Shown piece by piece: positions 1,348 to 38,261 of a stretch of DNA of 54,507 nucleotides. Each line of letters starts with the position of its first letter. Position 1 is the stretch's first letter. Position numbers and translations under genes: made by a program. The DNA is from a virus. The notes under the pieces were generated by a model. It searched no databases and had not been told where the DNA came from. It worked only from the letters and a program-made list of their open reading frames with translations. Location of the stretch: positions 1 to 54,507 of the IMG/VR virus record IMGVR_UViG_3300042691_040273; one strand, given 5' to 3'.

Positions 1348-4300
1348 TTAAGTTTTAGTATCACCTTTTATGTACAATGGACCAACAAACGGCACACCAC
1401 TTGGCTGTAATCCTCCTGTTGGCATCCACAACACTCTATAAATACCTGCAGGAATTGCTGCGCCACTTGGAATTGTAACATTTATTGCAGATAATTTTGG
1501 AGATGGAATATCATTATCAAAAACATTATTTGTGCACGGTGAACCCGTACCAAAATCAACCGTCATATTACTAAATGTTCCACCGACTCCCGCTAATGGT
1601 ATCCATATTGAATAGAAATATTGTATGTTTGTATTAACATCTGTATTTTCAACTACAATAGAACCAAACGTATATTGATTTTGTGGACAACCAAACGAAT
1701 CTGTACCTGTACCTGATAACTGCCTAATTAATGATTTCAAATCATTTGGTGTTTTATAGAAGAAATAATCACCATCACCATTTACAAAACCATTATATTG
1801 TGAATATACTATTAAATCATTTTCATAATTTGTTTCACTAGGAATACCACTATTTCCAAATCCATAGAAATTTGTTGCACCATTTGTATACATATAATCC
1901 CCTAATACCCCTAAAGCAGTTGCATCTTGTGGCTCAGCAAACACATACGCATAATAAGGTGTTGATGTTGGCGTAGGTGTAGGTGTCGGAGTTAATGATG
2001 GAGTCGGTGTGGGAGTTGGTGTTGGCGTAGGTGTAACTGCTACAGTAGTTGCACAGCCAACAATAAAATCAAAGGTTGTTTCTAAATTGTTTGCACTTAT
2101 AACAACTACCTTTACTAAATCTGTTTCACTTGAAACAAATATTTCTTGACTACCGTTACCCCCACTGAAAGTTTGTGGAACAGCAGCAGTAGATGGGGCA
2201 TAAACATTAAATGTATCTACTGTTGAATAACCACTATATGAGAATGTAAATTTACCATAATCAAAATTGTTATTAATTGATACATAAAATGTTTGTGGAT
2301 TAGCTGAATAAGAACCACTTATTACTTCATTACATAAATAGAAATCTTGTTCTTGTATACATGATACATTGAATCTATATGTTGTATCTGGACTTGCATT
2401 GCTTGTAACTCTTACTCTTATAATTTTTGTTGTACTTCCAACATATATTTCTGCTTGTCCTGTTCCACCTGTAAAACTATTGTCTGTCGAAAGTGAATTA
2501 AATGGTACGTATACATCAAATATATCTTCTGTTGTACCACCGCTGTATGAAAATGTAATTACGCCATTCACATTATTAATATTATTTATATCCACATAAT
2601 AATCAACAGGTGTTGCAGAATATACACCATTTATTACAGTATCACACAATATCGTTGGTAATGGTGTAACTGTAGGTGTTGGTGTTGGCGTTGGAGTACC
2701 TGTAGGTGTTGGCGTTGGAGTTCTTGTAGGTGTTTGTGTTGGTGTCCTCGATGGTGTAACCGTTGGTGTTAGCGTAGGCGTTGTTGTAGGTGTTGGCGTT
2801 GGTGTTGGAGTTGGTGTTGGAGTTGGTGTGAATTGTATTGGTAATTCTCCACAAAGTGTTGTATAATTTCTGAGAAGAGAATTAATACTTGGAATTGTGT
2901 TACAATTATCACTTTCAATATCATAATAGTATTGTTGCATATCCATCGCTAATGCAGTAAACTTATTATATGTATGTTGCATTAAAAGCTGATATGTACT
3001 ATTGCCATTGAATATAATTAAATTACCCAATCCTGCATCACCATTAATATTTATATGATAATAAATGTTAGCATCACAATAATTTAAATCAACACCAGTA
3101 ACTTCAAGCAATTCACCATTATGTGAAACTATATAATCACCATGCCTTGTAAAGTTCAAGGTCTCTCCCGTTACATTTAACTCAGGACAACAAGCATTAT
3201 TTATTGATTGTGTTTCTATTGTGTCATTTGTACTTATTTGTAAGAACTCAGGTAATCTATTAGTAAAATAATTATTTTTCTTATTTGTTATTGCACCTGT
3301 ACTTTCATTAACATCAAACTTTGTAAGTACTCTTAATTTTGATGTTGGAAGTACCTCAAATACTTCTGTTGTTGAAGCATTTGTCAAACCTGAAATGATA
3401 TTCTTTTTAACTGAACCTAAGCACTCTATATCATTAACTGTTACTGCAGTATATTGATAAGAAAATGAATAATCATTATTATTCTTGGCAGTTACAAAAT
3501 TTTGATTTGTAAATGTTGTTGGTTCTTTATATACTGCAGATAAAATAGTACTTCCTGAAACAATATTTTCTACGTTTGTAACTACTATTGTACCACCAGT
3601 GATGTAATTTATAATATCTTGTTTTGTTGTACCACTGTTTATTGTTGCACCACTTACAAGTAAAACCTTGCTATCTCCTTTTAAACCGTAATTAAAACTT
3701 GGTCTATATTCAACTATTGGTTCAATTGTATATCCTGTTGGTGAATTTATATTAAAAGATGTGCAGACAGCTTTAAGTTGTAAACCATCAATTTTTACTT
3801 TTACATCGCAGTTAGCACCATCCGTAAAAAGCAAATCAATTACATCTGTCTCAGTTACGCCCGAAAGTAATAATGTACAATTTTCATCTTCACCTGAAAT
3901 AACAACAGGATTCAATTGTGTATATCCACCAGGAAATGATGGTAGATTGTCATTATAACCTGAGTTACAATTAGCGTGTACATACACAGGCCAATAAGGT
4001 GTTGAACCTGTTGGTGGTATACCTATTGTATTTCCACTAAATGTTACATAAAGACCACCAACTAATTTACAATCTTCTGTACCACCCGAATATATTGTGT
4101 CACTATTAAATCTAAAGTTAACTTGCATACCACATAGTGGTCCTTCCTTGTTGTATTCAGTTATATAACTAAAATCAACATAATCTCTGACAGAACAATC
4201 ATTAGTACCATAATATATTGAAGTAAATTCAATTTTTTCTGAACCTGGTATTGACTCATCAATTTCATATTTTATTCTGTCAGTTGGATTGTTAATTATA

Positions 4301-6966
4301 TTGTCAATTAAACTTTCAACAGCTTCTTTCCATAATGTTTTTATTTTTACAATATCAGGATTTACATAATCCTTATATTCACATATTAATGGAAGCTTTG
4401 TGTCAGTTGTACCTGTAGTAATTGCGGTACAACCACCATTGTTCAAAAATGTTGTCAAGTCTTGAGTATAACCACTAAACAGTCTTGCTGTTGTAGTTGT
4501 ACTTGTTGTTCCACTTATTACTACTTTTGCGGTATCCGTGTAACCTGTATAAATTTCACCACTATATAATTCACCATCTATACTTATGACAGGGTAAAGT
4601 ATTATTGTTGTTAAATCAATTAAACCACGCAAATTACTTTCTTCTCCAAGTAATGTTTCTAAATCCTCTTCTATTGCTAATTCAAAATCAGGATATAGTG
4701 GTTGATTAAATGTTTTTACCGAACATCCTTTCCTATATGCAAATTTAGAACGACCGAATACGGAGTTTTCTATCAAATTACCACCTGTCCATAAGGTTGT
4801 TGCAGGGATAAATTGGTCAATTATTTTGGTCCAATATGGACTTATTCTATTAACAAATTCATTAATTGTGCCAATATCGTATGCTGTAAAACCACTATTT
4901 GTTATATAATCTTTATATATTTCCTCAAGAACAATATAGTTTTTTTCATACTTAATTAAATGAGATTTTTTTGTTTGATTACTTAAAACTGTATTTAAGA
5001 ATTGTGCAAACGTTACACCCGTTTGTGGTGTAAGTGAGGAGTTACCAAAACTAATTTCTAAATCTCTACTTTTTCTAAATATATCATAATCTAAACCTCT
5101 TGCTGAAGATAGATATACACTGATATTTTTTCTGTTTAATATAAGTGAGGAATCTTCATCAACAATATGTGCTTTCGTATTATCAATTAATGTTTCTAAT
5201 TCATAACCTGTATCTAAACCTGGTAGTGTTCTAAAAACATCAAAATATTCTTCACCATATGTGAACTCTTTTGATTTTGTAATAATCTTTTTGACCCTTC
5301 CTGTTAAAGATGATTCTCCCTCATCTATAACCATTCTTGACCTGTGTGATAATGTTTTTTCATACCAACCAGCACCTTTTTGAAAGAAAATATCATCTGT
5401 TGTATTAAATGCACGTCTTGGTAATGATGTTTCTTCATCAACAGGATATTCAGCCCTACTAAATGATGTTAAACCACTTAATATTGCATCGTAAATATCT
5501 CCTTGCAAATCGAATGATTTTGGCATTGATGTTACCTTATAAAGGTACTCATCAATTTTGATTAGAGGTTCAGGTGCACCTAAAAATTTTAGAAAGAATT
5601 CGATACATTTTCTTGTACCTTTCGATTTATATATGTATGATAAATTTATAAGTAATCTTCTATAGAATTCATTTTCCGCATCAACAAGATTATAACCCAA
5701 TGAAACACCATCATAATTAGAATTTGCTCTTGTATATAAAGATGATTCTAAACTTTTTTCATCAAATAAATTAAATGTCTCTAAACCAAGAGTATTTGCT
5801 AAATTTTTTAATAAAACATCAGGAACGTTATTTACACCATCATAAGATACGTTCCGCATATATGCAATATTGTCAATAAATTTTTTTACTCTATCAAAAT
5901 TTTGACCATATAATTGAAATACTGAAGCTGCTTTTTCATCTTCTGAATCAAATTCAAACAATTGTGGTGACGATAAAAATCTAATCATCAGATTAGATTT
6001 GTAATTATCTACTTCATCAGCAATACTACTCAATTCCTCAATATATTGGTCATAAATTAAACCTGATATTTGTGGATTCCATCCATCTTTAGTTGTTGGC
6101 CATGTGACCGATACCTTTGATAATACTGTTTTTGTATTATCAAAATTGTCTTTTGGTACTGAAAATGATGCGGTGTATATTGGATTTGTATCTCTATTTA
6201 ATAATATCGTTTCTAATTCATCAACAGTTTCATAATATTCTTCAATGACACCATTATTTGGCTTTATAAGAAAGTTTGATGAATATGTTGAACCGCTAAA
6301 AGGATTTCCATTTACAGTCAATGTCAATACAAAATCATTATCTGTAGTTGGTTCAATATAATCAATAATATTATATTGATTATTTTCTATTTCTATTATG
6401 TATTTTTTATATGAAGAATAAAAATCTCTTTGTGGATTTTCGGTATTGCTTAAAAGTGTATTGACTGGTGTTACGAACTTTATATCAAAAGGGTTAAATA
6501 TTTTAGCAAGTTCAATATCTAAATCTGTAGTATCAAAGTTTGTATTATACGTAATATTAGTTGCGCTATACAAATCAGAGGATATTGGACCATTAACATC
6601 AACATATGCTGCTGCAGGAAAATTTGTAATTATATTTTTTATTGATGCTAATATTCGATATTTTAGAGAACCAAATAAAGATTTATTACCATCATTTTTT
6701 GATGTTTTAAATCTTACTTCATCAGAACGTTTGTTATTCGTTGTACTGCTGTTAATTGTTTCTTGTCCCAAATCATCAAGAGTCAAAAAATTAGAAAACG
6801 CTGTTGTTGTAAAATTTTTTGAATCTTTTTGTGGTAATATAAAGTCAATTGCAAAATTTGTATTAGTCAATTGACTTGTCCCATCAGTTATTTGAAAACC
6901 AATTAAATTATCACTAAACGTATCTGCCCCACTTGCTGCTTGACTTGGTACTTTTCTTTTTGCCAT
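1348..6966 (-). CDS. Giant baseplate wedge/fibre protein with tail-protein-I-like region and Thr-Pro linkers
   Basis: This is a 1872-aa structural protein. Residues ~430-465 ([20 protein letters not shown] followed by a hydrophobic LKFLGAPEP segment) resemble the phage tail protein I / T4 gp7-type wedge region, and a motif around [18 protein letters not shown] fits baseplate proteins. The C-terminal third is modular: a Thr-Pro linker at ~1378-1437, two tandem ~100-aa beta-sandwich-like domains (1438-1540 and 1541-1642, both beginning C-(D/N)-x-VI-x-G-x-YSA), a second Thr-Pro linker at ~1644-1669, then a ~200-aa terminal domain. It overlaps the upstream 306-aa gene by one base (TAATG), implying coupled translation. 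The wedge assignment is inferred from position after gp6/gp25 and the short similarity. The C-terminal modules look like an added surface-exposed decoration. Confidence 0.8.
1958..2034 (-). repeat. Thr-Pro linker repeat (short)
   Basis: A run of ACN-CCN codons in the minus frame, seen on the plus strand as GGTGTTGGCGTAGGTGT-like hexamers, encodes a TPTPTPTP linker inside the 1872-aa protein, between the duplicated domains and the C-terminal domain. Confidence 0.85.
2655..2829 (-). repeat. Thr-Pro linker repeat (long)
   Basis: About 58 codons of near-perfect Thr-Pro dipeptide repeat with occasional Val, Leu, Ser, Arg, Gln and Gly. The period is 6 bases. It separates the body of the 1872-aa baseplate protein from its C-terminal modules. 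Thr-Pro linkers are stiff and extended. Confidence 0.9.
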
Positions 6967-17932: not shown

Positions 17933-20900
17933 TTAAATTCGAGTTATCTCACACGCCCCACCAGAGCAGCTCATTGCACCATAATCAGCAATATCTTTGA
18001 ACTGTGGTTTATCAAGAATTTGACCGAAATCAACTTCTTTGAATTGACGTGTGATAGTTTCCCATTTGTGGAACAGATGAATGTCTTTCAAACAATATAC
18101 CATTCTTCTGATATCCCCTTTGAAATAATTCTTTGAAAATTTCTTTGCTCTGTCCAACCAATACTTCTTGAGTAACACTTGCTCTCTTGTTCCCGTAACA
18201 GGTAATCCTTCTATCAATGTGTCACATGCCAACCAAAGGTTGTTATCAAAGTAATGAAGACCGTCTACAACTAATCCTGACGCTAATACAGCACCTTTAC
18301 CATATTCGCTGACAAGTTCCTCAAGATTCAATACTGAAGTGAATGGTGCTTGGTTAAAATCCTTATCACCATAGTCAGACATGAATGATACTGCTGTAAA
18401 ATCTTCTCTATTATTCCAAATGTAATCAATAATAGCGTCTTTATCATCGATGATAACAGTGCAACTTGTGTTGTGATTGATTGGGTTATAAACACATCTT
18501 TCAGGATTAGTACCTGCATTGACCCAATTCTGTTGAACAAGTTTAATCAATTCAAGATGTTTGATACCTTTCATGTCCTTCTTGAATAATCCTTTCTTTG
18601 GATTTTCCACAGGAACAAATACCACATAATCACTCTTGGTAGTTGACCAAACACTTTCTTCAAGCAAGAATGGCATATTGTCTGTCAACCATTTTGCTGT
18701 GTTACTTTCTTTGTTCAACTGCATGATTCTGAAATATTTCTCAGAATGCTCTGGGTGAATACCTGATGCTGTACCCAATACTACAGATGCATTACCTGAA
18801 GGTTTAACACATGTAGTTCTTGCTGCTTGATTAATTTCAATAATATCAGCAACTTCCTTATTTACTCTCTTGACAATTTCTGCACCCTCTTTCAACAAGT
18901 CAGCATCGAAGAGTGATGGGTTGTTCATCCAACCTGTGATACTAACACCCAAGAGAGCCTCTCTTTCAAAAATCTTTTGACTTACTTCACCCAAATATGG
19001 GAAGTTAGTGTAACCTGCTTGTAATGTACCAAGAACTGCAGCATCCTTACATGCTTTAAAGAATTTTTCTTTTGTTGTACATTTTTCAGCATTAATCTCA
19101 TTTAAGTTACATCCTTGAATACCAAACTTATGTTTGTTGTTACGAACATAATATTCAATATCTTCATAATGTATCTTTGAAAAATCAATGCTATCAAGGA
19201 TTGGTAATTTTGCAATTTCAAAACAGTTATGAACAACAAAACCATTACATTCGAATTTCTCAACACCTTCTTGTACAGAACAATCATAAACAGGTACTGC
19301 TTCAATATGATAAGTAATACTCTTAATTTTCTCTAAAAAGTCTGTTTTATTAAATTTTCTTTTATAAGAAGACAAAATGTTTTCAATTAAGTTTCTTTTA
19401 TTAACATTCAAAAAACCTAATTTATTGAAATTTTTTATTGATTCTTTAGTTACAACTAATTCATGTGAATCTTTTACATCATATTCTTTCACCCCTCCTT
19501 TACCATCAGGTAAAAGACTTTTCCCATTTGAAGTTCTATTTCTGTTGAAATATAATTTAGAATATACCCCAAGAGCATTTAATGCGATTTGAATATTTTC
19601 CAAATTACCAATTTGATTAGAAACTATTCTTACTGAATTTCCTTTCTCTTTGTTAAATGCAACAGAACCATCAGCATCAAAATAACCTGATACGACTCCA
19701 TTTATGTAATTAAAATTACCTGATAAAAGTTTTTTGGTTAATCTTTTATTTTCTACTACAGATGAGTCTTTACTAACTATAAAATCATATAATTCTTTTG
19801 AATTAATTAACGTATAGTTTTCCTTATCTTGTTCAAGTACTAAATTATCTTTTTTAGTTGAACCCCAATTTAAATCTTTTAAGAATTGTAAACAAGTGTT
19901 ATGGTACTCTGAATTTTTATCACCCCAAAATTTAATTTGTGCATAATTTCTTGAAAAATTACCATCACCTAATACTGAACCAATTAGATAACCCAATTTA
20001 AAATCGTCAGTTGTTTTATCTAACAGTATATCAATATCAGTATTGTTACTAACAACTAACTCATCACCAACCATTAATTGAGATGCTTGAACCATACCAT
20101 CTGACGTAAACATAATGTGTTCACCTGTTACTTTAACTTTTCTTCCATAAACAGTCTCAATTTCATATAGTGGTTTTATTCCTGTCTGTCTGAAACCTGT
20201 TGATTTTACCTTCTTGGAATCAACAATAATTGAATCGTTATCTTTCAAATCTTCTGGAAAATATAAACCATTTGGTGTGTTAATTAGTGAATCAAAAGAC
20301 ACACATGGATTGAACATATCAAACCAACTGTTTGCAAATACAAAACCAATATCATTTGCACCATCGTTCAATTTAACCAAATAGTCGAATTGCTCTTTGT
20401 TGACCTCACTTCTGAGTAGAATAACTGAGTTATTACTTCTCGCTCTATGTGGATTTTCAACTCTCCAATTACCTGTTTTTGCATGAATCATTTCATCGTC
20501 ATTAGGGTCAACAATCATATTAAGTGCTGACCTTCTAACACCACCTGACAATACCGCATCAGATGCATGACAAATGATATCAAATGCAAGGATTGGTCTG
20601 ATTTTATTACCTTCTTTCTCAATCCATTTTTCAAGGAGTTGTTCAATCTTTTCTAATGATTGCTTCAAACCTTCGTGACCTGGTGCTTTGAAACCACCAC
20701 TAATGTATGTTCCTTTTTCTCTGATTTGAGAATAATCGAATTTTACTTCATATCCTGCATATTCAGGAAACGGTTGCTCATCTACAAAATAGGATGACAA
20801 AAGAACACCAAGTGAATCTGCCCACCCTTCAATAGTATCAGGAATAACAAATGTTTTTGTTCCTTTGGTTCTTTTTTGAATTCTACTTAAATTGTTTACG

Positions 20901-21271
20901 AATGGAATTAAAAGACCACCGCCAACACCACAACCTGATAAACCAAGATAAAAAATTTCTTGAAAGACTCTATTTCTTGCAATGTGGGTACTGGTACAGT
21001 TAAACATTTTTGTGTTATGTTTCATGATTTCATTGTACCTATATTGAAGATTTCTTTGTGATGCCAATACAACTTGGTCTTTCATGCTTTCAACCACAGA
21101 TTGAAGATACGGTTCCAAATCACTATTGTGATTAGTGTATTTTTTTCTGTGTCCGTTCACAATGTCTTCACAAGCCTCTTCCCAATTTTCATACCTACCT
21201 AACTCTTCCTTCCACTTAAAGTAATCCGAATACAATTTTAAGTCACTCAAAAACTTTTTACCTTTTTGCAT
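17933..21271 (-). CDS. nrdJ: Class II (adenosylcobalamin) ribonucleoside-triphosphate reductase with intein
   Basis: 1112 aa as encoded; ~752 aa after removal of the 360-aa intein at residues 323-682. It makes deoxynucleotides for phage replication. Class II monomeric RTPR features: NNSV (280-283), GGVRRSA (243-249), active-site Asn-Pro-Cys-(Phe)-Glu whose Cys is residue 683 (323 after splicing), redox partners Cys92 (MFNC) and Cys721 (QGCNLNEIN), TCVKPSGN loop, and a C-terminal Cys-Ser-Gly-Gly-Ala-Cys pair (1102, 1107) equivalent to the shuttle cysteines of the Lactobacillus RTPR. There is no N-terminal ATP cone and no NrdB gene nearby, agreeing with class II. It lies 15 bases after gp41 in a replication operon. 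Cobalamin dependence is inferred from family. Confidence 0.93.
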   Translation of the reverse strand: MQKGKKFLSDLKLYSDYFKWKEELGRYENWEEACEDIVNGHRKKYTNHNSDLEPYLQSVVESMKDQVVLASQRNLQYRYNEIMKHNTKMFNCTSTHIARNRVFQEIFYLGLSGCGVGGGLLIPFVNNLSRIQKRTKGTKTFVIPDTIEGWADSLGVLLSSYFVDEQPFPEYAGYEVKFDYSQIREKGTYISGGFKAPGHEGLKQSLEKIEQLLEKWIEKEGNKIRPILAFDIICHASDAVLSGGVRRSALNMIVDPNDDEMIHAKTGNWRVENPHRARSNNSVILLRSEVNKEQFDYLVKLNDGANDIGFVFANSWFDMFNPCVSFDSLINTPNGLYFPEDLKDNDSIIVDSKKVKSTGFRQTGIKPLYEIETVYGRKVKVTGEHIMFTSDGMVQASQLMVGDELVVSNNTDIDILLDKTTDDFKLGYLIGSVLGDGNFSRNYAQIKFWGDKNSEYHNTCLQFLKDLNWGSTKKDNLVLEQDKENYTLINSKELYDFIVSKDSSVVENKRLTKKLLSGNFNYINGVVSGYFDADGSVAFNKEKGNSVRIVSNQIGNLENIQIALNALGVYSKLYFNRNRTSNGKSLLPDGKGGVKEYDVKDSHELVVTKESIKNFNKLGFLNVNKRNLIENILSSYKRKFNKTDFLEKIKSITYHIEAVPVYDCSVQEGVEKFECNGFVVHNCFEIAKLPILDSIDFSKIHYEDIEYYVRNNKHKFGIQGCNLNEINAEKCTTKEKFFKACKDAAVLGTLQAGYTNFPYLGEVSQKIFEREALLGVSITGWMNNPSLFDADLLKEGAEIVKRVNKEVADIIEINQAARTTCVKPSGNASVVLGTASGIHPEHSEKYFRIMQLNKESNTAKWLTDNMPFLLEESVWSTTKSDYVVFVPVENPKKGLFKKDMKGIKHLELIKLVQQNWVNAGTNPERCVYNPINHNTSCTVIIDDKDAIIDYIWNNREDFTAVSFMSDYGDKDFNQAPFTSVLNLEELVSEYGKGAVLASGLVVDGLHYFDNNLWLACDTLIEGLPVTGTREQVLLKKYWLDRAKKFSKNYFKGDIRRMVYCLKDIHLFHKWETITRQFKEVDFGQILDKPQFKDIADYGAMSCSGGACEITRI
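19226..20305 (-). mobile_element. Intein with LAGLIDADG homing endonuclease in nrdJ
   Basis: In-frame 360-residue insertion. It starts with Cys (CVSFDSLINTPNG) and ends VVHN, followed by the +1 Cys, the standard class 1 splice arrangement. The block-B-like GRKVKVTGEHIMFTSDG contains the conserved T-x-x-H equivalent (TGEH). Two dodecapeptide motifs, LGYLIGSVLGDG (~425-436) and INGVVSGYFDADG (~523-533), mark an endonuclease of the LAGLIDADG type with both acidic residues present, so it looks active. Removing it restores a perfect Asn-Pro-Cys-Phe-Glu. Hand counts of four 60-base lines inside it gave ~21% G+C versus ~39% in three flanking extein lines. Confidence 0.95.
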
Positions 21272-27419: not shown

Positions 27420-30400
27420 TTATGACATTTTAAAATAAACTATACTACCATTATTTAAACCCAACTTACGCATAATTGAATATGATAAACCTATACCAAA
27501 ATTGTCTGGTACTGTAATATCAACAATTCCTGTCACAACTCTATTATTTTCAGGTCCACTTATTGTTGATGGTACTGTACATTCTGCTTTTGTTTCAGGA
27601 TTAACAAATATTGTTGTTGCAGACCTTACTTTATTAATATCTGCCTCTTTTGATGGTAATACTGATGTACTAAAAAAATCATAATTTTTTCTTGTATTTT
27701 TTATTTCTGACCATAACATGGTTTTCTGTAATTTGCTGATTACTTCCATTTTTCTATCATCCTTAATTTGAAAATTATTGGTGTCAGAACCAAATTCAAA
27801 AACTCTTGCCCTTAACCATTCTGTTTCAGGTTGATTTCGATATGAGTATTTTACTAATTGTATTGTTTGTACATTAGCATATCCATTGTATGGTACAAAA
27901 AATTCTGTAATATTTGATTTATTAACTTTTATTTTTTCAAAATCTTCACCTATAGCTTCTTGTCCGATATTGATATTATATGTTTTTCCATCACTGTTTA
28001 TTGTCGATGTGACATTTATATTACCTGTTTGTGATAATGTTTGTTTTTGAATCAAGTTTGTTCTTAATCTATCAAACAATACTCTGTAACTTGATATAAA
28101 TGAATCTTTCGGGTCAGGTAATGATGCATATGGAATTCTATACCCTTTGAATTTTGTTGTAAAATTATTTCCTCTAATGTCATGTGATACTTCTGTTATC
28201 CAATATGAACCTCTAAACATTGGTATATTTTTAAGATAGAAGTACATAGTTGGTTGTATCATAACATTTCCCATAGATGTAACATCACATGTATATGATG
28301 CCTGTCGATAGTAATCGAATAAACTAATGTCAACATTGTAAGCACCTGCACCTGATTCTGAACGTGCTAAATTTTCCAATACAACCATAGATTCGGTTGT
28401 ATTTTTTAATGATGTTTGGTCTAATGTCACTCCTTTAAATATTGATTGGTTTTGGTCACCAAAACTCACTTCAAAACCAACTACTCTATTTGATTTAGAT
28501 AAATCGACATTATTGAACACTTCTGGTGTTGTAATAATTAACGGATTATTATTAACATTAGACAAGTTGAAACTATCATCAGCAAATTTATATTTCTTAT
28601 CATTTATCTCTAAATGTTTTGATGTTTGTCCAACTAATTGTAGAATAATTTTTGGTGATGATTCTTGATAATCAACATCCAAATACGTTCCAAATATATT
28701 TTTTGCAACTTTTTTCGATGGTGTTATTTTTGTTTTATTATTAAAATTTGTACCATAAAAATTTACATATGCAGGTAATGGACGCATGTCAATACCTGTA
28801 TCTCTTAATAAAACACTAATAACAGAATATAAATTACTTTTATCATAATCTTGTTTTTGTAACGCCAATACTCTATCAATATTCAAAAACAACACATCTC
28901 CAATATCTTTATTTGCTTTATCTAAAAATAAAAATTCTTCTAACAGTAATCTTTGTCCTATTGAGTTTCCGCCAATCCATTTATCATTAAACGATTTGAA
29001 GAAATTATATAATTCAACTTTCATTTTATCGTTTTCATGACCTAATACAATCTTTTTTTGACCAGGTGTTACTGCTGTTAAATTTAATTTTGAAAAGTTT
29101 CTTATTAATTGAGTTAAGAAATATTGTTTTCTTTGTATTGCACCAACTTTATTATTTGACCCATAATTAAAAATATTTTGTGATAAATAAGCCTTGAATG
29201 ATGTATTGGTATTTGTTCCACCATTTTTTACATACCCTGCGTATATTTGTATCAAAGGTCTAAATTGTAATATATTTGTTTCATTCAATGCAACATCATT
29301 AACAATAAAGAAATTCTCATAATGCGAATCCAAATCTTCACCTAAATATAGTTTAATAAGATTACGATTTTGATTTGTAAGTTGACCATTAAAAAAACCA
29401 TCGTATGAAAATTTATTAACATTATCTAAATCTGCAAAACCATGCCAAACATTATAATTTACTTCTTTTGGATTTCCTAAAGTAAATTTCAAAGTATTTT
29501 CTCTTGATGTTATTTTATTTGATATCTCTTTTATATTATCTTGCTGCCTTTTTTTAATGGTATTTATTAATTGATTTATTTCTAATGTATCGTCTGCTGT
29601 TTCTTTTTTAACTGTAACTAAATCTTTAAGTAAAAATTGAAACTTTGTATATTTTACATTCGGAAATTTTCTACTATTATCTGTTGATGAAAATACTTCA
29701 CTTGAAAAATCTAAAAATATATTTTCAAATTCTTCCAATATTACAGGACTGAATGTCGCAATTAAATCAATAACTTTCCTGTACTCTAAATCAACAGCAT
29801 ACAAACCATTATTCATTTGTGTTGTAGAATATGATTTGAAATAATCTGTTGGTTTGGGAAATTTTCTGTTCTCATAATTATCATTTACATATCCATCTTC
29901 CCAAAGTATTTTATAATAGTTTTGTATTTCCTCACTGAAAGGTTTTGCGCTTATAACAATTTGTTGACCTGTTACCAAATTTGGTATTGTTTTTGATATA
30001 CTGTTATTTGCGCCATCGCATGGCATTAATGTAAACCTTAAATCTGCTGCATCATATTTACTGTTATCAATTAATTGCGTCCAATAATCCATATTATTGG
30101 ATTGTTTTCTTTGTCTCAATATAATTGCACCTGCATCGACATTTTGTGAGAAAGATGTGTTACCTGAGAATATTTCATAATGATTATAATCATTAACTAT
30201 TTGATGATATATTGCATCATAATATGGATGAACACCAATATCCTTTGATTCAGAAAATGTTATTGTTTCACCACTTGCAGTAAAACCTGTGTATATACTA
30301 CCTGACTGATTGTCATTAAAAAATCTTGCAGAATCTATTGGTGTTGTTAATGAATTTACATTCAAAAATCCATCTAATATATCAACACCTTCAGTGATGA

Positions 30401-33203
30401 ATTTTTTATATCTATGATATATAGAACCCCACTTACAAATTAAATGATATGGTACAAAATGTGTTGCAGATACTTCTCTGAACAATGTTGACATTCTGAT
30501 TGGGTCATATATTCCTGTAAAATCTTCAAATATTACTTTATCTTCTAAATCTTTGAATGGTAATGAATTCAATAAAAGATATGCTGAACCTGAGTATCTA
30601 CCATATGATGATGTTTTTGTAAAATCTGCAAAAAGTTGTTTATGAAAATATGGTGTATTCAACACATGTGCTTGAGTATTATTAACTTTCAAGTTATTTG
30701 AAAATAAATTATTGTAACCATCCTTTAACCATGATAACGGAGAATTTGGTGATGCAATAAATGAAACAGAATTATCAACAGATAAAACACCATTATTTTT
30801 CAATTCTTCTTTTGTAAATTCGGTTACCCCTAAATAATTCAAATAGGTTGTTGAATTAAATGGATATATAGATACTCTATGATTTTCAGGAGTATAATTC
30901 AGAAGATTTTCAGTTAATTTAGTCAAATCCTCATCACCCGTTGTCTTATTGTTTACATTATATTCTGTAATCTCAAAAGGTAATTCTAAATTAGATTTTA
31001 AATAGGGTATTGTTGGTAATTGGTCTTCATAATATGGATATCTCTCAAAAGGTGAAAAAGATAATAACATTTCTTCTAACTTCGGATAACTAGTGATAAG
31101 ATTTTTTAATATGGTTATTAAACTATTATCACCTTCTACTGATTTTTTAATATTTTCAAATTCAATATTTGCTAATTCATTTAATGTAGAATTATCAAAT
31201 GAATCAATAATCGTAAATTGATTTGCTCTTTCATATATTTCATACAAGAAGGATGATGGTGCTAAATCAATATATGGAATGACATTATTTATATATCCTA
31301 ATGTACTTATTAATTTAGTGTTATTGTTATTTTCATCGTTTTCAAATTCCTTGTTTGATTCGCTAATACTATTTTCTTTTTCTGTATTTGAATCAACTTT
31401 GTTGGTTGAAACCTCAATAAAATTTTCGATAAATTCTACTTCAGGCCAAAGATTTGCATCGTCAGATTGTAATTTAGAAATTAAATTACGTTCACCAGGA
31501 TATGCAATAACTCTTGTTTTTTGATTGTCAACATCCTTTTTGATTTCAGGCCAAGGATAAATTGCAGGTTCTCCTTTAGTTTCTTTTGAATAATTGACTA
31601 ATAATTTTTTTCTTGTTTCTGATTGTTCAAATGCTCTTTGATGTACATCTTTCATTAATCTAATATACACATCTGCATTTGCTAATATCACTGCAAATAT
31701 ATTTCTTATTGTTGGTTCAAATCCAAAACCCTTAGTTTTGTCTTTGACAATAACGTTCATTTGTTCTTCTATGTTTTGTTCTAATTTATCTCTCTGTTGA
31801 ACAAAAACATTTCTTATTTCATCAATATCTTCAACTAATAAATCTATTTTGACCTGGTACTTATTTTCGAATGGTCTGTAATATTTATCTATTTTGTCAG
31901 CCAATTTTGCTAAAATTTTACTTTTTGTAAAATTAGCATTACCTGTTTTACCGTCCGATGCTGCTTTAGTTAGTTCATCCGTAAATAATTTACTTGCTTT
32001 TAATCTTTCATTATTTTGAATTATTAAATATTCTAATGTACCTTCTTTATTTGCTCCAACAATTTTTTCATTTGTTGATTTCGTTAAATCTTTTAAATCA
32101 TAACAATTTATTGATTTACCTTCTTTTTGTTCTATATCAAAATTATTTAATAGATTAGTTGTTGCCCATGCTTTTGCTTGTGTGTAAAATGTATTTATAT
32201 TATTTTCAAAATCTTGTAAACCAACAAAAATATCTGGATGTAATTTTTCATACAATATTTCCCTCTCTAAAATTTTATCAAGTGATTGTGCTTTGACAAT
32301 TAATTCACGCAAAGTAACTACAGGAAAATCAGGTTTTACTAAACCTTTTCTTATATATTCTGAATAAATTGTTTTTAATATAGAATAGCCTTTTGATAAT
32401 CTTGTTGTTTCTAATGTTTTTGTATCCTTTTGTGGGTTCTGTGTTGTTTCTTTTTTATTTTCTAAAGGATACATGTACGGGCAATTCATTATTGCCTTTA
32501 ATGGAATATCGGATAAATATGCAAATGTTGAACCAACAAACTTTGTACTAACTTCAAAATTACCATTAGCATCATTGTATCTTGTTGAAAATTTTATCAG
32601 ATGTAATCTATAACGTATTGCCTTTCCATAATACCCTTTTAATGTTAAATAAAATATAGGCCAAGGTATATGAAAGAATGCATGATATGGAGAGTTCTCA
32701 GCATTTTCAAATAATGTTTTACCTCTGACATCAATAAATGTTATATTAACTTCAGGAATAGCGTTTGCACCTTTTATTAAAACTGAAATATTATCAATAC
32801 CAAATGATTGTCCTGATGAATCATAATTTTTCAATGATTCTACGGGTATATCATTACTGCCATTTAAATTATTTTTTAATTGTTGTTTATTATCTTTTGT
32901 ATTATTTGTAAATGCATCTGTCCATGATGTATCAAAATCTTTACCATTTTGATTTGATAAAAAATTAAGTGTTCCTTTTGCTATTGATGTTAATGTATTT
33001 TGGTCATTAGTTGATGTTAATATTGAACGTGGTACAATATCTGCTTCTAAGTTTGCATATATTACCAAATTTTCAGGTTTTACGTCCCTTGGACGAATAT
33101 TACCATCATTATCGACAACACTATTCGGGTCGATATAAATAAGATTATTTTGGTCTACTTTTACTAAGATGTTTTCGCTATCCAAAGGATTATTGTTCGC
33201 CAT
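27420..33203 (-). CDS. Giant tail/baseplate hub-like protein, 1927 aa
   Basis: One of two giant structural proteins in the tail region. Residues ~1633-1692, from ASYTCDVTSMGNVMIQPTMY through ITEVSHDIRGNNFTTKFKGY, resemble the end of the gp27/gpD-type hub domain, where a value-setting beta barrel closes with a Gly-x-Tyr-x-Ile-x-x-(V)-x-H-x-(I) strand pattern. The middle contains long lysine/glutamate helices (~400-560), while the rest is beta-rich and Asn-rich. No lysozyme or peptidase motif is seen. It overlaps the gp53-like gene by 14 bases and follows the 1582-aa protein, i.e. it lies where contractile phages encode hub proteins after the tape measure. The size is far above T4 gp27 (391 aa). 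Hub assignment is moderate. Confidence 0.8.
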   Translation of the reverse strand: MANNNPLDSENILVKVDQNNLIYIDPNSVVDNDGNIRPRDVKPENLVIYANLEADIVPRSILTSTNDQNTLTSIAKGTLNFLSNQNGKDFDTSWTDAFTNNTKDNKQQLKNNLNGSNDIPVESLKNYDSSGQSFGIDNISVLIKGANAIPEVNITFIDVRGKTLFENAENSPYHAFFHIPWPIFYLTLKGYYGKAIRYRLHLIKFSTRYNDANGNFEVSTKFVGSTFAYLSDIPLKAIMNCPYMYPLENKKETTQNPQKDTKTLETTRLSKGYSILKTIYSEYIRKGLVKPDFPVVTLRELIVKAQSLDKILEREILYEKLHPDIFVGLQDFENNINTFYTQAKAWATTNLLNNFDIEQKEGKSINCYDLKDLTKSTNEKIVGANKEGTLEYLIIQNNERLKASKLFTDELTKAASDGKTGNANFTKSKILAKLADKIDKYYRPFENKYQVKIDLLVEDIDEIRNVFVQQRDKLEQNIEEQMNVIVKDKTKGFGFEPTIRNIFAVILANADVYIRLMKDVHQRAFEQSETRKKLLVNYSKETKGEPAIYPWPEIKKDVDNQKTRVIAYPGERNLISKLQSDDANLWPEVEFIENFIEVSTNKVDSNTEKENSISESNKEFENDENNNNTKLISTLGYINNVIPYIDLAPSSFLYEIYERANQFTIIDSFDNSTLNELANIEFENIKKSVEGDNSLITILKNLITSYPKLEEMLLSFSPFERYPYYEDQLPTIPYLKSNLELPFEITEYNVNNKTTGDEDLTKLTENLLNYTPENHRVSIYPFNSTTYLNYLGVTEFTKEELKNNGVLSVDNSVSFIASPNSPLSWLKDGYNNLFSNNLKVNNTQAHVLNTPYFHKQLFADFTKTSSYGRYSGSAYLLLNSLPFKDLEDKVIFEDFTGIYDPIRMSTLFREVSATHFVPYHLICKWGSIYHRYKKFITEGVDILDGFLNVNSLTTPIDSARFFNDNQSGSIYTGFTASGETITFSESKDIGVHPYYDAIYHQIVNDYNHYEIFSGNTSFSQNVDAGAIILRQRKQSNNMDYWTQLIDNSKYDAADLRFTLMPCDGANNSISKTIPNLVTGQQIVISAKPFSEEIQNYYKILWEDGYVNDNYENRKFPKPTDYFKSYSTTQMNNGLYAVDLEYRKVIDLIATFSPVILEEFENIFLDFSSEVFSSTDNSRKFPNVKYTKFQFLLKDLVTVKKETADDTLEINQLINTIKKRQQDNIKEISNKITSRENTLKFTLGNPKEVNYNVWHGFADLDNVNKFSYDGFFNGQLTNQNRNLIKLYLGEDLDSHYENFFIVNDVALNETNILQFRPLIQIYAGYVKNGGTNTNTSFKAYLSQNIFNYGSNNKVGAIQRKQYFLTQLIRNFSKLNLTAVTPGQKKIVLGHENDKMKVELYNFFKSFNDKWIGGNSIGQRLLLEEFLFLDKANKDIGDVLFLNIDRVLALQKQDYDKSNLYSVISVLLRDTGIDMRPLPAYVNFYGTNFNNKTKITPSKKVAKNIFGTYLDVDYQESSPKIILQLVGQTSKHLEINDKKYKFADDSFNLSNVNNNPLIITTPEVFNNVDLSKSNRVVGFEVSFGDQNQSIFKGVTLDQTSLKNTTESMVVLENLARSESGAGAYNVDISLFDYYRQASYTCDVTSMGNVMIQPTMYFYLKNIPMFRGSYWITEVSHDIRGNNFTTKFKGYRIPYASLPDPKDSFISSYRVLFDRLRTNLIQKQTLSQTGNINVTSTINSDGKTYNINIGQEAIGEDFEKIKVNKSNITEFFVPYNGYANVQTIQLVKYSYRNQPETEWLRARVFEFGSDTNNFQIKDDRKMEVISKLQKTMLWSEIKNTRKNYDFFSTSVLPSKEADINKVRSATTIFVNPETKAECTVPSTISGPENNRVVTGIVDITVPDNFGIGLSYSIMRKLGLNNGSIVYFKMS

Positions 33204-33513
33204 AATATAAATTATATAAATCTACACCTCTTTTATAATCTTGTAAAGTGGTTATCAATGGAAATGGTATTCTTAATAAGAAATTATCAGGTATTTCAAA
33301 CTCTAATCCACCAACAGATGGATTTGCCAATAATATTAACCATCCAAATGTCGGTGTGTTATAATAATCTTGTGATACTTTATCTAATCTTGTTCTACCT
33401 CTTTTATAAAAAAGATATTTATCAGTGGTTTTTATTGGAATTTCAATACCAGGAACAATCCTAAAATTACCATCTTGTTCAAAAAATTGATACCTATCAA
33501 AATACTCTCTCAT
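33190..33513 (-). CDS. Baseplate wedge protein gp53-like (LysM-type)
   Basis: 107 aa. The pattern TTDKYLFYKRGRTRLDKVSQ, then DYYNTPTFGWLILLANP and a final (I)P-DNFLLRIPFP, matches LysM-like phage proteins of the gp53 / P2 gpX type, in which a Tyr-Gly/Asn-x-Pro-x-x-x-W-x-I-x-x-x-N core is diagnostic. T4 gp53 (196 aa) joins the wedge to the hub; here only the LysM part is present. The start overlaps the stop of the 1582-aa gene by one base (TAATG) and the end overlaps the 1927-aa gene by 14 bases, so it sits between the two giant hub-like genes. Confidence 0.8.
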   Translation of the reverse strand: MREYFDRYQFFEQDGNFRIVPGIEIPIKTTDKYLFYKRGRTRLDKVSQDYYNTPTFGWLILLANPSVGGLEFEIPDNFLLRIPFPLITTLQDYKRGVDLYNLYYGEQ

Positions 33514-36500
33514 TATATTATTTTAGTCTTATAATAATTTAATTTATTTGTTACAGACACAACAGAAGAATTTAATTTTTTTCCTTCGTCTATCATTGCA
33601 GCATTTGATGTTTCTGTTTCTGTTGCAATTCCATATTCTAATTTATTTCCATTTGCTCTATCTTTGAATTTATCAAATGTAAATGGTTTAGCTCTTGGAA
33701 TATTTATAAAGTTGTCAAATCTTTTTAACATTTTAGATTGTGTCTTATCATCATAAATTGTTTTATCTACATTAAATAAATTTATTATATTATTATTTTC
33801 TTTTTGTAATAATACAGATAATATATCTGACAAATTTTGATTTGTAATCACAGGACTTTTAAAATTTATTGTGACATCCAAATCAGTATATAATGTTGTG
33901 TTTTTTGCATTTATATAATCTATACAATAAGAATATTCTTTATATAATAAATTTCTTGTAAATCCTGACAATTCAACTTCGTATGTTTTGCCGCTAAAAA
34001 TTTTAAAATCCCTTTCGTATTTAACAACAAAATTTACCTTATCCAAAGATGTTATTAAATTGTTTCTTGTATTTTCAAAATCTTTTATTTGTTTTACTTC
34101 AATTAATTCTGTTAATTTATCTGAAACAAATTTTTTAACATATGGTCTAAGTATTCTATTTGTTTTATCTATTTTTTGTGTTGACAATACATTATCAAAC
34201 CCAAACATAGTACATAAGTCTGCTGTTTCTATTTGTTGTGATATAATTTCTTTTGTTCTATTAACTAATGAACCTAATTCAATTCCCTTTTTATAATTAC
34301 CAAAAATATCAATATTAATGTTTGAATTATCTCCTTTAGTTATTTCATATGTTTTTATCTCTCTATAGTTTGGTGATAAAACCATACTTGATAAAATAGG
34401 TCCATAATTTGTATTTACATTATTATATAGTTCTTTATACTGTAAAAAATAATTTTTTGTTGCACTAAAAACTTCATTTACTTTTGATGTGTAATCTAAT
34501 TTATTATCGCCAAGTATACCGACATATTGTCCTTCTCTTAATACATTACCACTATCTTCATTTGTAGGTTCAGGTGTTTTATTATTATTTATTGGAAATT
34601 TTTCTAAAAATTCTTTGGTAAATTTATTTGCATCCATACCATCAATTCTTTTGTTTGTTGACTCGGCTCTTTCATCATATATTTCCGTATTTGCATAAAA
34701 ATTTGATGATAAAGCATTTTGTAATTGAGATACAGGTTCTTCTAAACCATGTCCACCAATAAATGATACTGCTAATGTTACAGATGCAATCATAGGTTGC
34801 ATCCCAATTCCTTCAGGATTCATGTCCCATGGAGAGTCTTCATATGAAAAATTTACATCTCTTATAATAACTTTAGAGTGATAGAAATCACCAATTCTTA
34901 AAACACAAATAGGTGGTGGACCAAAACTCGTATTTCTTGCATTAATATCTGTGTCATCGGATAGACCTTTTATTGGTATTGTATCACCAGGTCTAATACA
35001 TTGTTGTAAAAATGTTAATCGTGAATTCAACCCTTCAGGTGTCGTAGAATGAAAACCAGGATGAAAATATCTCAACTTTTCCCTCAATGAACTAAATACC
35101 ATCGGTGAATCTTGTTCCAATATTTTAAAATAATAACATTCAGATAATGTTTTCATTATTATCCGTTTCATTACATCTATTGGTGGTTTCTTCACTTTAG
35201 ACGGTATCGTTACTTGACCATTGGGTTCTATTCTTGATTTAGGTACTACTTTAGGTTGTTCAGGATTATTTGATTTCTGTTGTGTAGATTCTAAATCATA
35301 ATAAAAATCTACACTTGCTTTTCTACAGAAGAATGATATTGGGGCATATACATTTAATTCTCTATTCTTTTTGAAATCCTTATTGAAACAATCATTATCG
35401 TTTGTTATAGTTGTTGATAACCATGATTCTCCATAATTTTTTATATTGATAATAACTTCACCATCCCATTGCCAACCTAAATCTTTTAATGTATATTTAA
35501 AATCTTTGCTTATTGTACCTTGTTGATTATTTATTTCTGTTGTACTTTCAAACCATTTTACGGTAGAAGGCTCTTTGTTATCCTTACTTATCTTGATTAA
35601 AAAATCCTTCATAATACTGTAACTTCTACGCATAGATAACCTTTTGTTATAATCTACAGCACCTAAAGCAGATGTACTTGAAAATATATTAATGTATATA
35701 TTTTTTACTTTACCCGATTCAATATTAGCACGGAGAGTTTGAGTTTTACCTGTAAAGGATTCGTATGAAGTTCTTAGTGTTTCAAAATAACTATCTAACT
35801 TTGTTACTTGGTCAGTTACAATTGTTGTACCTGTTTTTATTGCACCGTAAATTATTTTTCTATCATTGTTTGCCAATTCATCATTTAATGAAATTGTATT
35901 ATATGATGTTAGTATTGATGATAATTTTGAATTATAAACTGATTTTTTATTGTAATATGAATCATAAAGTTCATTATAACTTGATGATGTTTTGATATCT
36001 GTTTTTGTACCTGGTACATCATTATCAAAATGAAGAGTGATTGTATTTAATTTTTCTACCGTTGAATTAGGTGAATCTGATGCATTAGGTGTAGTTGTCT
36101 CTGGCGATGATGTTGTTACTTCCTCTACTACTGCTTTGTACTTTTGTATGGTGATTGGGTCACCTCCTTTGTTTAAATATGATTGTATGTTTTGTACATC
36201 TGATGCATCTAATGTTGTATATTTTCTAATTAATTCATAAAATTCCAAATCTTTACAACCTGCAAATACTGCATTTATATAGTTATCAGCTTCCTCATCA
36301 GACATATTTTTGAACTCTTCTCTTACAAGTAAATTTAAAATACTTGGATGGTCAACAACAACTTTGAAATTTATTTGACCTGTTCTTTCTGTATTTGAAT
36401 AAGTATATACAGGTTCAGGTCTACCCAAAAATTTATTTGTTTCCCATTGTGCTGAATTATTTTCTGACACTTTTAAATCATACGGTGGAAACCACATTAC

Positions 36501-38261
36501 TCTACCACCATTAGGACCTCTCTCACAAAATGGCAAATCAAGAACTGTAAATCCTTGTCTATTAGATGTTTTCCATGCAAGATTCTCTATTGATAACATA
36601 TATTTTTTTGCATAAAAACTTTTACCGTCAGAATCAGGACCATAGTCATAACCTGAAAATATATTAGTTGAACCTTCAAATCCTTTTCTACCGTTTGACA
36701 TTGGCGCAATATTTAAATTCCAAGGATTTGAAACAACTGTACCTTCGAATTTTCTAATATTTCCACCTTTTTTCATTGTATCTGAATATGAAATATAAGG
36801 TCTATCTTTTGTCCATGTCCTACAATATTCAACACCATTTTCTTCGCCAAATTTATCAACATATTTTATAGCCGAACCTCTTGACATTAATATTGTACCT
36901 TCTCTAAATATTCTTGTTGTTTGGTCAATAACATTTGCAACATGTGAACGAGCCTCACCACCATTTGTTGGCATACTGTCAAGTATGTCTTGTGTATAAC
37001 CTAACAAAGAATCATCTCTAAAATCAAATTTTGTTGATAATGAATCTTCAAATTGTGACCTTTGAGAATCATACTGTGAATTATTAGCACCAAGTTTATT
37101 TTTTGTATTTATGCTTATCCACGTTAACTTACCACTAAGTTGACCACCTTCAGTATAATTTCTTTCCTTTTGAAATAATTCTGCTTGTACTGGGTCAAAT
37201 AATAAACTTAAATAATATGGACTACGAACAGGTCTTCCATTGAAATCATACATTGCATATTTCGCATCATTACCTCTATCATCACCAATATATGAAACAC
37301 CAACAGGTGCTTCAAAACCCAAAGCATCTTTGACACCTTGTGCTGCCTTATCTATGAAATTAAATATTTTAGATGTGTTCTGTGACCTTGCAGTTGTTGT
37401 ATAGTTTGGTGCGTACTTTGAATATGATAGCAAATCAAACAATGTTTGTTTTTGACCACTACCCATGTAATCAATAAGTAAATCTGACGGGTTTCTTGAT
37501 AATGTTGGTCTTCTTTGAATTCCCAATAAAGAGCCAAGTACACCTGTTGTATCTTGAAATATTTTACCATATTCACTATTTGGTACAGGTCTGACATTAA
37601 TCGGGTTATTTGGATTTGATAAATAATCACCAGGTATTTCTACCCACGGAAATTCAACACCTGCAACTGTTTGTAAAAAATCTATCCCCTTTCCTATTGG
37701 GGATTTTGCAACTGTTATTTGATAATTTGCTTCTATTAAAGGAACTTTGCCTGTAACGATACCAACTGCTGCAGAAATATTTCCTTGCAGCGCATCAATC
37801 AATCTTACTCTTCCAACTGTTGCTTTGTATAAATTTTGTTGAATTCTTGAATATACAGGACCTTTTTGATTTCTATCTCTAATATATGATGCAGCAAATT
37901 TAAATAACTCAGATTCATTTTCATAATTAGAATTGCTAATAATACCAACCAAATTATGTTTTTCAGCAACAAAGTATGGTGTCCCATTATAATATAAAGA
38001 TAAATTTGCCCTTCTTGGTATAACATTTAGTTCTTCTACTACATTATATTTTAATGGTTTGAAAATATTAGCATTTTGTGATACCAATAAATCTGCCGTT
38101 CTATTTGTATCAACAGCACCTGGGTCTACATTTGCAAACTCATTTTGTGATTTATATCTGTAGTTTGCTGCTGTAAATGTTTGTGGTCCATTTGGTACTT
38201 GTAATGTTTTTGCTAATATTCTGTCTCTAAATACTTTTGTTGTATCAAAATCTAAAGGCAT
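33513..38261 (-). CDS. Giant tail protein with OmpA-like segment, 1582 aa
   Basis: Virion protein encoded right after the tape measure. The N-terminal half is beta-rich and has no recognised family. Residues ~735-750 (LNTITLHFDNDVP) and ~865-890 (AVDYNKRLSMRRSYSIMKDF) match the first strand and the Asn-x-x-LS-x-x-Arg-(S/A)-x-x-V helix of OmpA-type peptidoglycan-binding domains, with a ~110-residue insertion between them. Residues ~1120-1170 (FGPPPICVLRIGDFYHSKVI, then VNFSYEDSPWDMNPEGIGMQ) look like a phage tail/hub beta domain. It could form part of the baseplate hub or cell-puncturing complex acting in the periplasm. A TATTTATA box lies 13 bases before the ATG. Function is inferred from position and the OmpA-like segment. 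Confidence 0.8.
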   Translation of the reverse strand: MPLDFDTTKVFRDRILAKTLQVPNGPQTFTAANYRYKSQNEFANVDPGAVDTNRTADLLVSQNANIFKPLKYNVVEELNVIPRRANLSLYYNGTPYFVAEKHNLVGIISNSNYENESELFKFAASYIRDRNQKGPVYSRIQQNLYKATVGRVRLIDALQGNISAAVGIVTGKVPLIEANYQITVAKSPIGKGIDFLQTVAGVEFPWVEIPGDYLSNPNNPINVRPVPNSEYGKIFQDTTGVLGSLLGIQRRPTLSRNPSDLLIDYMGSGQKQTLFDLLSYSKYAPNYTTTARSQNTSKIFNFIDKAAQGVKDALGFEAPVGVSYIGDDRGNDAKYAMYDFNGRPVRSPYYLSLLFDPVQAELFQKERNYTEGGQLSGKLTWISINTKNKLGANNSQYDSQRSQFEDSLSTKFDFRDDSLLGYTQDILDSMPTNGGEARSHVANVIDQTTRIFREGTILMSRGSAIKYVDKFGEENGVEYCRTWTKDRPYISYSDTMKKGGNIRKFEGTVVSNPWNLNIAPMSNGRKGFEGSTNIFSGYDYGPDSDGKSFYAKKYMLSIENLAWKTSNRQGFTVLDLPFCERGPNGGRVMWFPPYDLKVSENNSAQWETNKFLGRPEPVYTYSNTERTGQINFKVVVDHPSILNLLVREEFKNMSDEEADNYINAVFAGCKDLEFYELIRKYTTLDASDVQNIQSYLNKGGDPITIQKYKAVVEEVTTSSPETTTPNASDSPNSTVEKLNTITLHFDNDVPGTKTDIKTSSSYNELYDSYYNKKSVYNSKLSSILTSYNTISLNDELANNDRKIIYGAIKTGTTIVTDQVTKLDSYFETLRTSYESFTGKTQTLRANIESGKVKNIYINIFSSTSALGAVDYNKRLSMRRSYSIMKDFLIKISKDNKEPSTVKWFESTTEINNQQGTISKDFKYTLKDLGWQWDGEVIINIKNYGESWLSTTITNDNDCFNKDFKKNRELNVYAPISFFCRKASVDFYYDLESTQQKSNNPEQPKVVPKSRIEPNGQVTIPSKVKKPPIDVMKRIIMKTLSECYYFKILEQDSPMVFSSLREKLRYFHPGFHSTTPEGLNSRLTFLQQCIRPGDTIPIKGLSDDTDINARNTSFGPPPICVLRIGDFYHSKVIIRDVNFSYEDSPWDMNPEGIGMQPMIASVTLAVSFIGGHGLEEPVSQLQNALSSNFYANTEIYDERAESTNKRIDGMDANKFTKEFLEKFPINNNKTPEPTNEDSGNVLREGQYVGILGDNKLDYTSKVNEVFSATKNYFLQYKELYNNVNTNYGPILSSMVLSPNYREIKTYEITKGDNSNINIDIFGNYKKGIELGSLVNRTKEIISQQIETADLCTMFGFDNVLSTQKIDKTNRILRPYVKKFVSDKLTELIEVKQIKDFENTRNNLITSLDKVNFVVKYERDFKIFSGKTYEVELSGFTRNLLYKEYSYCIDYINAKNTTLYTDLDVTINFKSPVITNQNLSDILSVLLQKENNNIINLFNVDKTIYDDKTQSKMLKRFDNFINIPRAKPFTFDKFKDRANGNKLEYGIATETETSNAAMIDEGKKLNSSVVSVTNKLNYYKTKII

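Follow-up and report, generated by a model that had tools for sequence, protein, structure and literature searches.

The reading frame for a ribonucleotide reductase in an uncultured tailed phage contains an insert of 360 amino acids that ends immediately before a presumed catalytic cysteine of the enzyme, which raises the question of whether this insert is an intein and, if so, whether it is likely to splice and to move between reductase genes. The sequence comes from a 54.5-kb virus record, which was analyzed over its whole length of 54,507 nucleotides (hereafter, the window) and encodes a tail sheath protein, tail tube protein, baseplate wedge, DnaB-like helicase, DNA polymerase and UvsX-like recombinase. 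The phage is a distant T4-like myovirus, with the closest match of its tail sheath protein (33%) found in Microcystis phage Mel-JY01. Three very large proteins of 1872, 1927 and 1582 amino acids (1348-6966, 27420-33203 and 33513-38261) have no Pfam matches and are probably structural.

The interrupted reductase

The reductase gene (17933-21271, minus strand, as are all the features described below unless a contig is named) lies between helicase and baseplate genes and encodes 1112 amino acids, of which residues 323-682 are the insert. We interpret it as a monomeric class II ribonucleotide reductase (RTPR, NrdJm) interrupted by an intein. The N-extein (20306-21271, residues 1-322, ending in FDMFNP) matches RTPR, including the protein of known structure 1l1l, and the C-extein (17933-19225) comprises 430 amino acids and the stop codon. 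Removal of the insert yields a protein of 752 amino acids with the junction FDMFNP-CFEIAK and a computed mass of 86.0 kDa, in good agreement with the spliced product of about 85 kDa predicted from the sequence-only reading. The exteins match the NCBIfam profile TIGR02505 (4e-37, under the full-length cut-off of that model) and, in a profile search, 1l1l (2e-20). The stretches that can be aligned with 1l1l omit the NPC motif, and the assignment of the thiyl-radical cysteine therefore rests on the N-x-C-x-E motif and on knowledge of the family.

By this motif, the residue that follows the insert (codon 19223-19225, C323 of the spliced protein, in NPCFE) is presumably the cysteine that forms the thiyl radical, and its proposed place at the +1 position is borne out. 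In an alignment with eight relatives, N321, P322, C323 and E325 are invariant, and so are C92 (20996-20998), which we take to be redox-active, the second redox-active cysteine C361 (19109-19111, in G|CNLNEI, itself an intein site in some relatives), and the C-terminal pair C742 and C747 in CSGGAC (17951-17968). Homology, the N-x-C-x-E motif, the C92/C361 pair and the C-terminal cysteine pair together are those expected of an RTPR, and adenosylcobalamin-dependent activity can be predicted from family membership.

Anatomy and predicted action of the intein

The insert occupies 19226-20305 (1080 nucleotides), exactly to the base as originally proposed, begins with CVSFDSL and ends with GFVVHN, so that the flanks join as NP-CFEI. 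Matches to the Pfam families Intein_splicing (7e-13) and LAGLIDADG_3 (PF14528; 1.8e-13), both above the cut-off, together with a seamless empty site in a close relative, confirm that it is an intein. We assessed residue conservation among 24 sequences that are 30-65% identical to the window intein. The N-terminal splicing nucleophile Cys1 (20303-20305), T60 and H63 of block B (T60-G-E-H63, 20117-20128), G109, D114 and G115 of the first LAGLIDADG motif (LIGSVLGDG, 19961-19987) and F209, D210, A211 and G213 of the second (VSGYFDADG, 19667-19693) are present in all 24, which agrees with the earlier description of both motifs as intact. In blocks F and G (VYDCSVQEGVEKFECNGFVVHN, 19226-19291), V339, D341, F351 and N360 are invariant and H359 is conserved in at least 90% of the sequences.

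The N-terminal cysteine nucleophile, the TxxH of block B and H359-N360 followed by the +1 cysteine are those of a class 1 intein; the class 3 mechanism is ruled out by the presence of Cys1 and the invariant Asp341 of block F. The Hint fold is indicated by the Intein_splicing match and by an AlphaFold2 model (pLDDT 92.4) that superimposes on the NpuDnaB intein (Z 19.7, 2.0 Å, 129 residues), and the two motifs with their acidic residues are those of a LAGLIDADG homing endonuclease. The PDB matches are endonuclease-bearing inteins that align end to end, PI-PfuI ranking first.

We consider it very likely that the insert is a mobile class 1 intein and belongs to an allelic family with its insertion point directly ahead of the thiyl-radical cysteine (NP|CxE) in class II reductases. 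The reductase would be translated as the 1112-residue precursor, expected to be inactive until spliced; Cys1 would attack the Pro322-Cys1 peptide bond in an N-S shift, the ester would be passed on to the +1 cysteine, and cyclization of Asn360 would join the exteins and restore NPCFE in the 752-residue RTPR. In a mixed infection, reductase genes that lack the intein would be cleaved at the thiyl codon by its endonuclease domain, and repair would copy the intein in. The proline that precedes the window intein counts against splicing; a proline at this position reportedly slows the first splicing step of the Mth RIR1 intein in Escherichia coli.

Empty sites, constraint and history

Alignment with reductases that have and lack inteins, as the sequence-only reading had suggested, brought up a perfect empty site. 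The reductase of contig L010 is 97% identical to the window protein and lacks the insert, with zero bases lost or gained at the junction, and codons 314-333 around the junction are the same in both. About 65 close relatives have an empty site, and most of the nearest reductases from viral contigs are uninterrupted. The window and L010 group as sisters in the extein phylogeny, on branches of almost the same length (0.027 for the intein-bearing and 0.023 for the empty gene), and this type of intein shows at least four gains or losses. Mobility is thus supported by the pattern of presence and absence, not by G+C content.

Between the window and L010, the exteins show a dN of 0.016 and a dS of 0.41. 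Such constraint on an extein with a branch nearly equal to that of L010 is what would be expected if the spliced enzyme works and, next to an empty-site sister, represents the best indirect evidence for protein splicing. For the whole intein, dN/dS lies at 0.11-0.23 in comparisons with its nearest relatives and at 0.05-0.11 in more similar pairs within the family, and for the endonuclease region it is 0.05-0.20 in pairs with unsaturated synonymous sites. Given that these values are well below 1, both splicing and endonuclease functions look maintained; extein constraint equal to that of the empty-site sister and the low dN/dS of the endonuclease region support splicing and homing, respectively.

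An alternative is that the intein is retained because its splicing is conditional, for instance redox-gated through Cys342 and Cys353, and thereby times reductase activity. All five nearest-clade inteins have these two cysteines, which are adjacent to the splicing centre. Conditional splicing has been described for other inteins, such as the mycobacterial DnaB intein, an oxidative stress sensor (PMC6195587), and the Aquifex aeolicus R2 intein raises iron loading (PMC8772380). We nevertheless regard this explanation as improbable: the close relatives with empty sites do without an intein, Cys353 is missing outside the nearest clade, and the sporadic distribution fits a parasite. The specific version, in which disulfides of Cys342 and Cys353 would hold back splicing as long as the infected cell is not yet reducing and so tie reductase activation to the redox state of the host, is a similarly long shot. 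That the intein has decayed, with splicing lost and the phage reductase dead, is very unlikely. Degenerate-looking alleles do occur at the same site, such as the insert of contig L080 that ends in NGITAAR|C, without the terminal asparagine, but the window intein keeps every splicing residue and the window extein is constrained as strongly as its empty-site sister. Finally, we found no support for the insert being a native part of the reductase or a product of chimeric assembly, and both are ruled out: it is missing from L010-L013 and from the majority of other relatives, the independent contigs L014, L068, L081 and L097 have orthologous inserts bounded by identical junctions, and the sequence matches intein families. 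The outcome that the sequence-only reading had named as fatal to its own proposal, namely that the insert is shared, conserved reductase sequence, likewise did not hold, with empty sites found.

The inference of a separate history of the mobile intein from base composition did not survive. The G+C content is 27.3% in the intein, 35.1% in the reductase and 30.0% in the window, rather than about 21% and 39% for intein and reductase as estimated by hand. At third codon positions it is 15% in the intein, 28% in the extein and mostly 14-22% in other phage genes; by this measure it is the reductase, not the intein, that departs from the rest of the phage. Of the related inteins, 41 of the 42 viral and 64 of the 80 cellular ones also have a lower G+C content than their flanks; such a contrast thus characterizes intein and host gene in general and does not point to recent import. 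As far as they can be resolved, the intein and extein trees share one topology (window/L014/L068 versus L081/L097), and the synonymous divergences of the two, similar and near saturation, could not separate vertical from horizontal history. The nearest inteins are just 60-65% identical to that of the window, and recent homing into this phage is therefore not demonstrated; no co-conversion tract was found in the comparison of L010 with the window, nor any from a sequenced donor. The reductase exteins of the window and L010 are 92.5% identical in nucleotides, compared with 81-84% overall in the aligned blocks of the region, possibly due to a recent exchange of the reductase gene between phages or just to stronger constraint.

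The thiyl codon as a target and known systems

In a comparison of 71 reductases, the 24-bp segment with the insertion point at its centre takes rank 21 of 2206 in conservation. Several other top-ranked segments include the peptides by which the sequences had been retrieved, so that the insertion site is probably the best-conserved stretch free of this bias, leaving aside the N-terminus. The description of the target as some of the most conserved DNA in nature is right in that the site is conserved, but overstated: it applies to the protein motif, and the DNA varies at third positions.

Within the same reductase family, a variety of other elements was detected. The insert of L080 (4801-6000) is a different, larger intein at the thiyl site that is either dead or has a non-canonical splicing end. 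A natural mini-intein of about 142 amino acids, without an endonuclease and ending in VVHN, occupies the thiyl site in L084 (4447-4872), and a mini-intein is also present in L085. An intein of about 335 amino acids with a C-terminal glutamine, unrelated to the thiyl-site intein, is located before the redox cysteine (G|CNL) in L068 (4996-6000), L069, L084 (4993-6000), L085 and L087 (4996-6000); L068, L069, L084 and L085 thus carry inteins at both catalytic cysteines simultaneously.

In L072, a small intron of about 223 nucleotides (5776-5998) lies within the thiyl codon itself (T^GC), offset by a single base from the point of intein insertion. Homologues at T^GY were identified in L002 (1146-1375; Pseudaeromonas phage KLEP7, RTPR), L090 (1775-2004; NPCGEQ) and L092 (4669-4858, minus strand; NPCAEQ), so that four divergent phage reductases contain homologous introns of 190-230 nucleotides without an endonuclease. 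A P1 pairing (exon CCGU with GCGG), P4- and P7-like pairings and covariation, with two-sided changes at 21 of 52 predicted pairs, led us to denote these introns group I-like. At the gathering threshold, Rfam detected no RNA in the window, L072, L002, L080 or L001, and RF00028 gave no match at all in the small introns. Another insertion in L072 (4648-5540), at reductase codon 245, contains a LAGLIDADG-like reading frame and looks like a group I intron (RF00028, E 0.018, below the cut-off). In Rhizobium phage RHph_I1_18 (L001), the RTPR is uninterrupted and a free-standing annotated homing endonuclease gene (5201-5953) overlaps its 3' end on the other strand.

With its 97% identical empty-site sister, the window gene offers a clean example of a very widespread intein family whose target is a single catalytic codon, in different classes of reductase and in viruses, bacteria and archaea alike. 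The related reductases amount to a natural experiment: a single codon has been invaded by inteins of unrelated types, by a mini-intein and by group I-like introns, and a second intein site precedes the other active-site cysteine. They allow a direct test of the idea that such elements persist at positions where their imprecise deletion would be too costly for the host.

The search for intein alleles at the same insertion point, which the sequence-only reading had also recommended, was productive. A single-sequence search of the viral contigs with the window intein gave no match; a profile of four intein sequences was required, and none of the search patterns reached into the flanks. The profile retrieved over 40 full-length relatives from viral contigs, with all 42 tested located at NP|CxE in several reductase lineages, and in cellular genomes 79 of the best 80 matches are at the same point, in archaea, cyanobacteria, Chloroflexi, Omnitrophota, Proteobacteria and others. 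The window intein is accordingly a further member of a known, widespread allelic family of phages, bacteria and archaea.

The inteins of cellular class II reductases are class 1 with LAGLIDADG motifs and align with that of the window over residues 1-360; they are 26-34% identical to it, and many of the host genes are of the NrdJ type, unlike the RTPR of the window. We take Mth RIR1, which is also preceded by proline, and Pfu RIR1/PI-PfuII, with a target coding for TNPCGEEPL, to be characterized members of this group of thiyl-cysteine-site inteins. The best-aligned solved structure, PI-PfuI of Pyrococcus furiosus (1dq3; Z 25.8, rmsd 5.7, 319 residues), presumably also a ribonucleotide reductase intein, differs in its length of 454 amino acids and is 22% identical. 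The SPbeta-type bnrdE intein of Bacillus and Staphylococcus phages (NC_001884, MT955612) precedes the same thiyl cysteine, which serves as its +1 residue, and aligns over the whole length of the window intein (26-28%), but resides in a class Ib NrdE (NL|CSE or NL|CTE), has glycine instead of histidine as the penultimate residue and comprises about 385 amino acids.

Inteins and introns are well known to interrupt phage reductases (PMC3653736), and RNRdb curates about 80 inteins and more than 100 group I introns (PMC2795772). The Aquifex R2 intein likewise separates catalytic residues of a reductase and splices in E. coli (PMC8772380). The insert in NrdJm of Thermus phage G20c, noted as a likely intein (PMC6459318), interrupts an enzyme of the same class, an RTPR, at the same NP|CAE site but is distant (27%), ends in GN and is G+C-rich.
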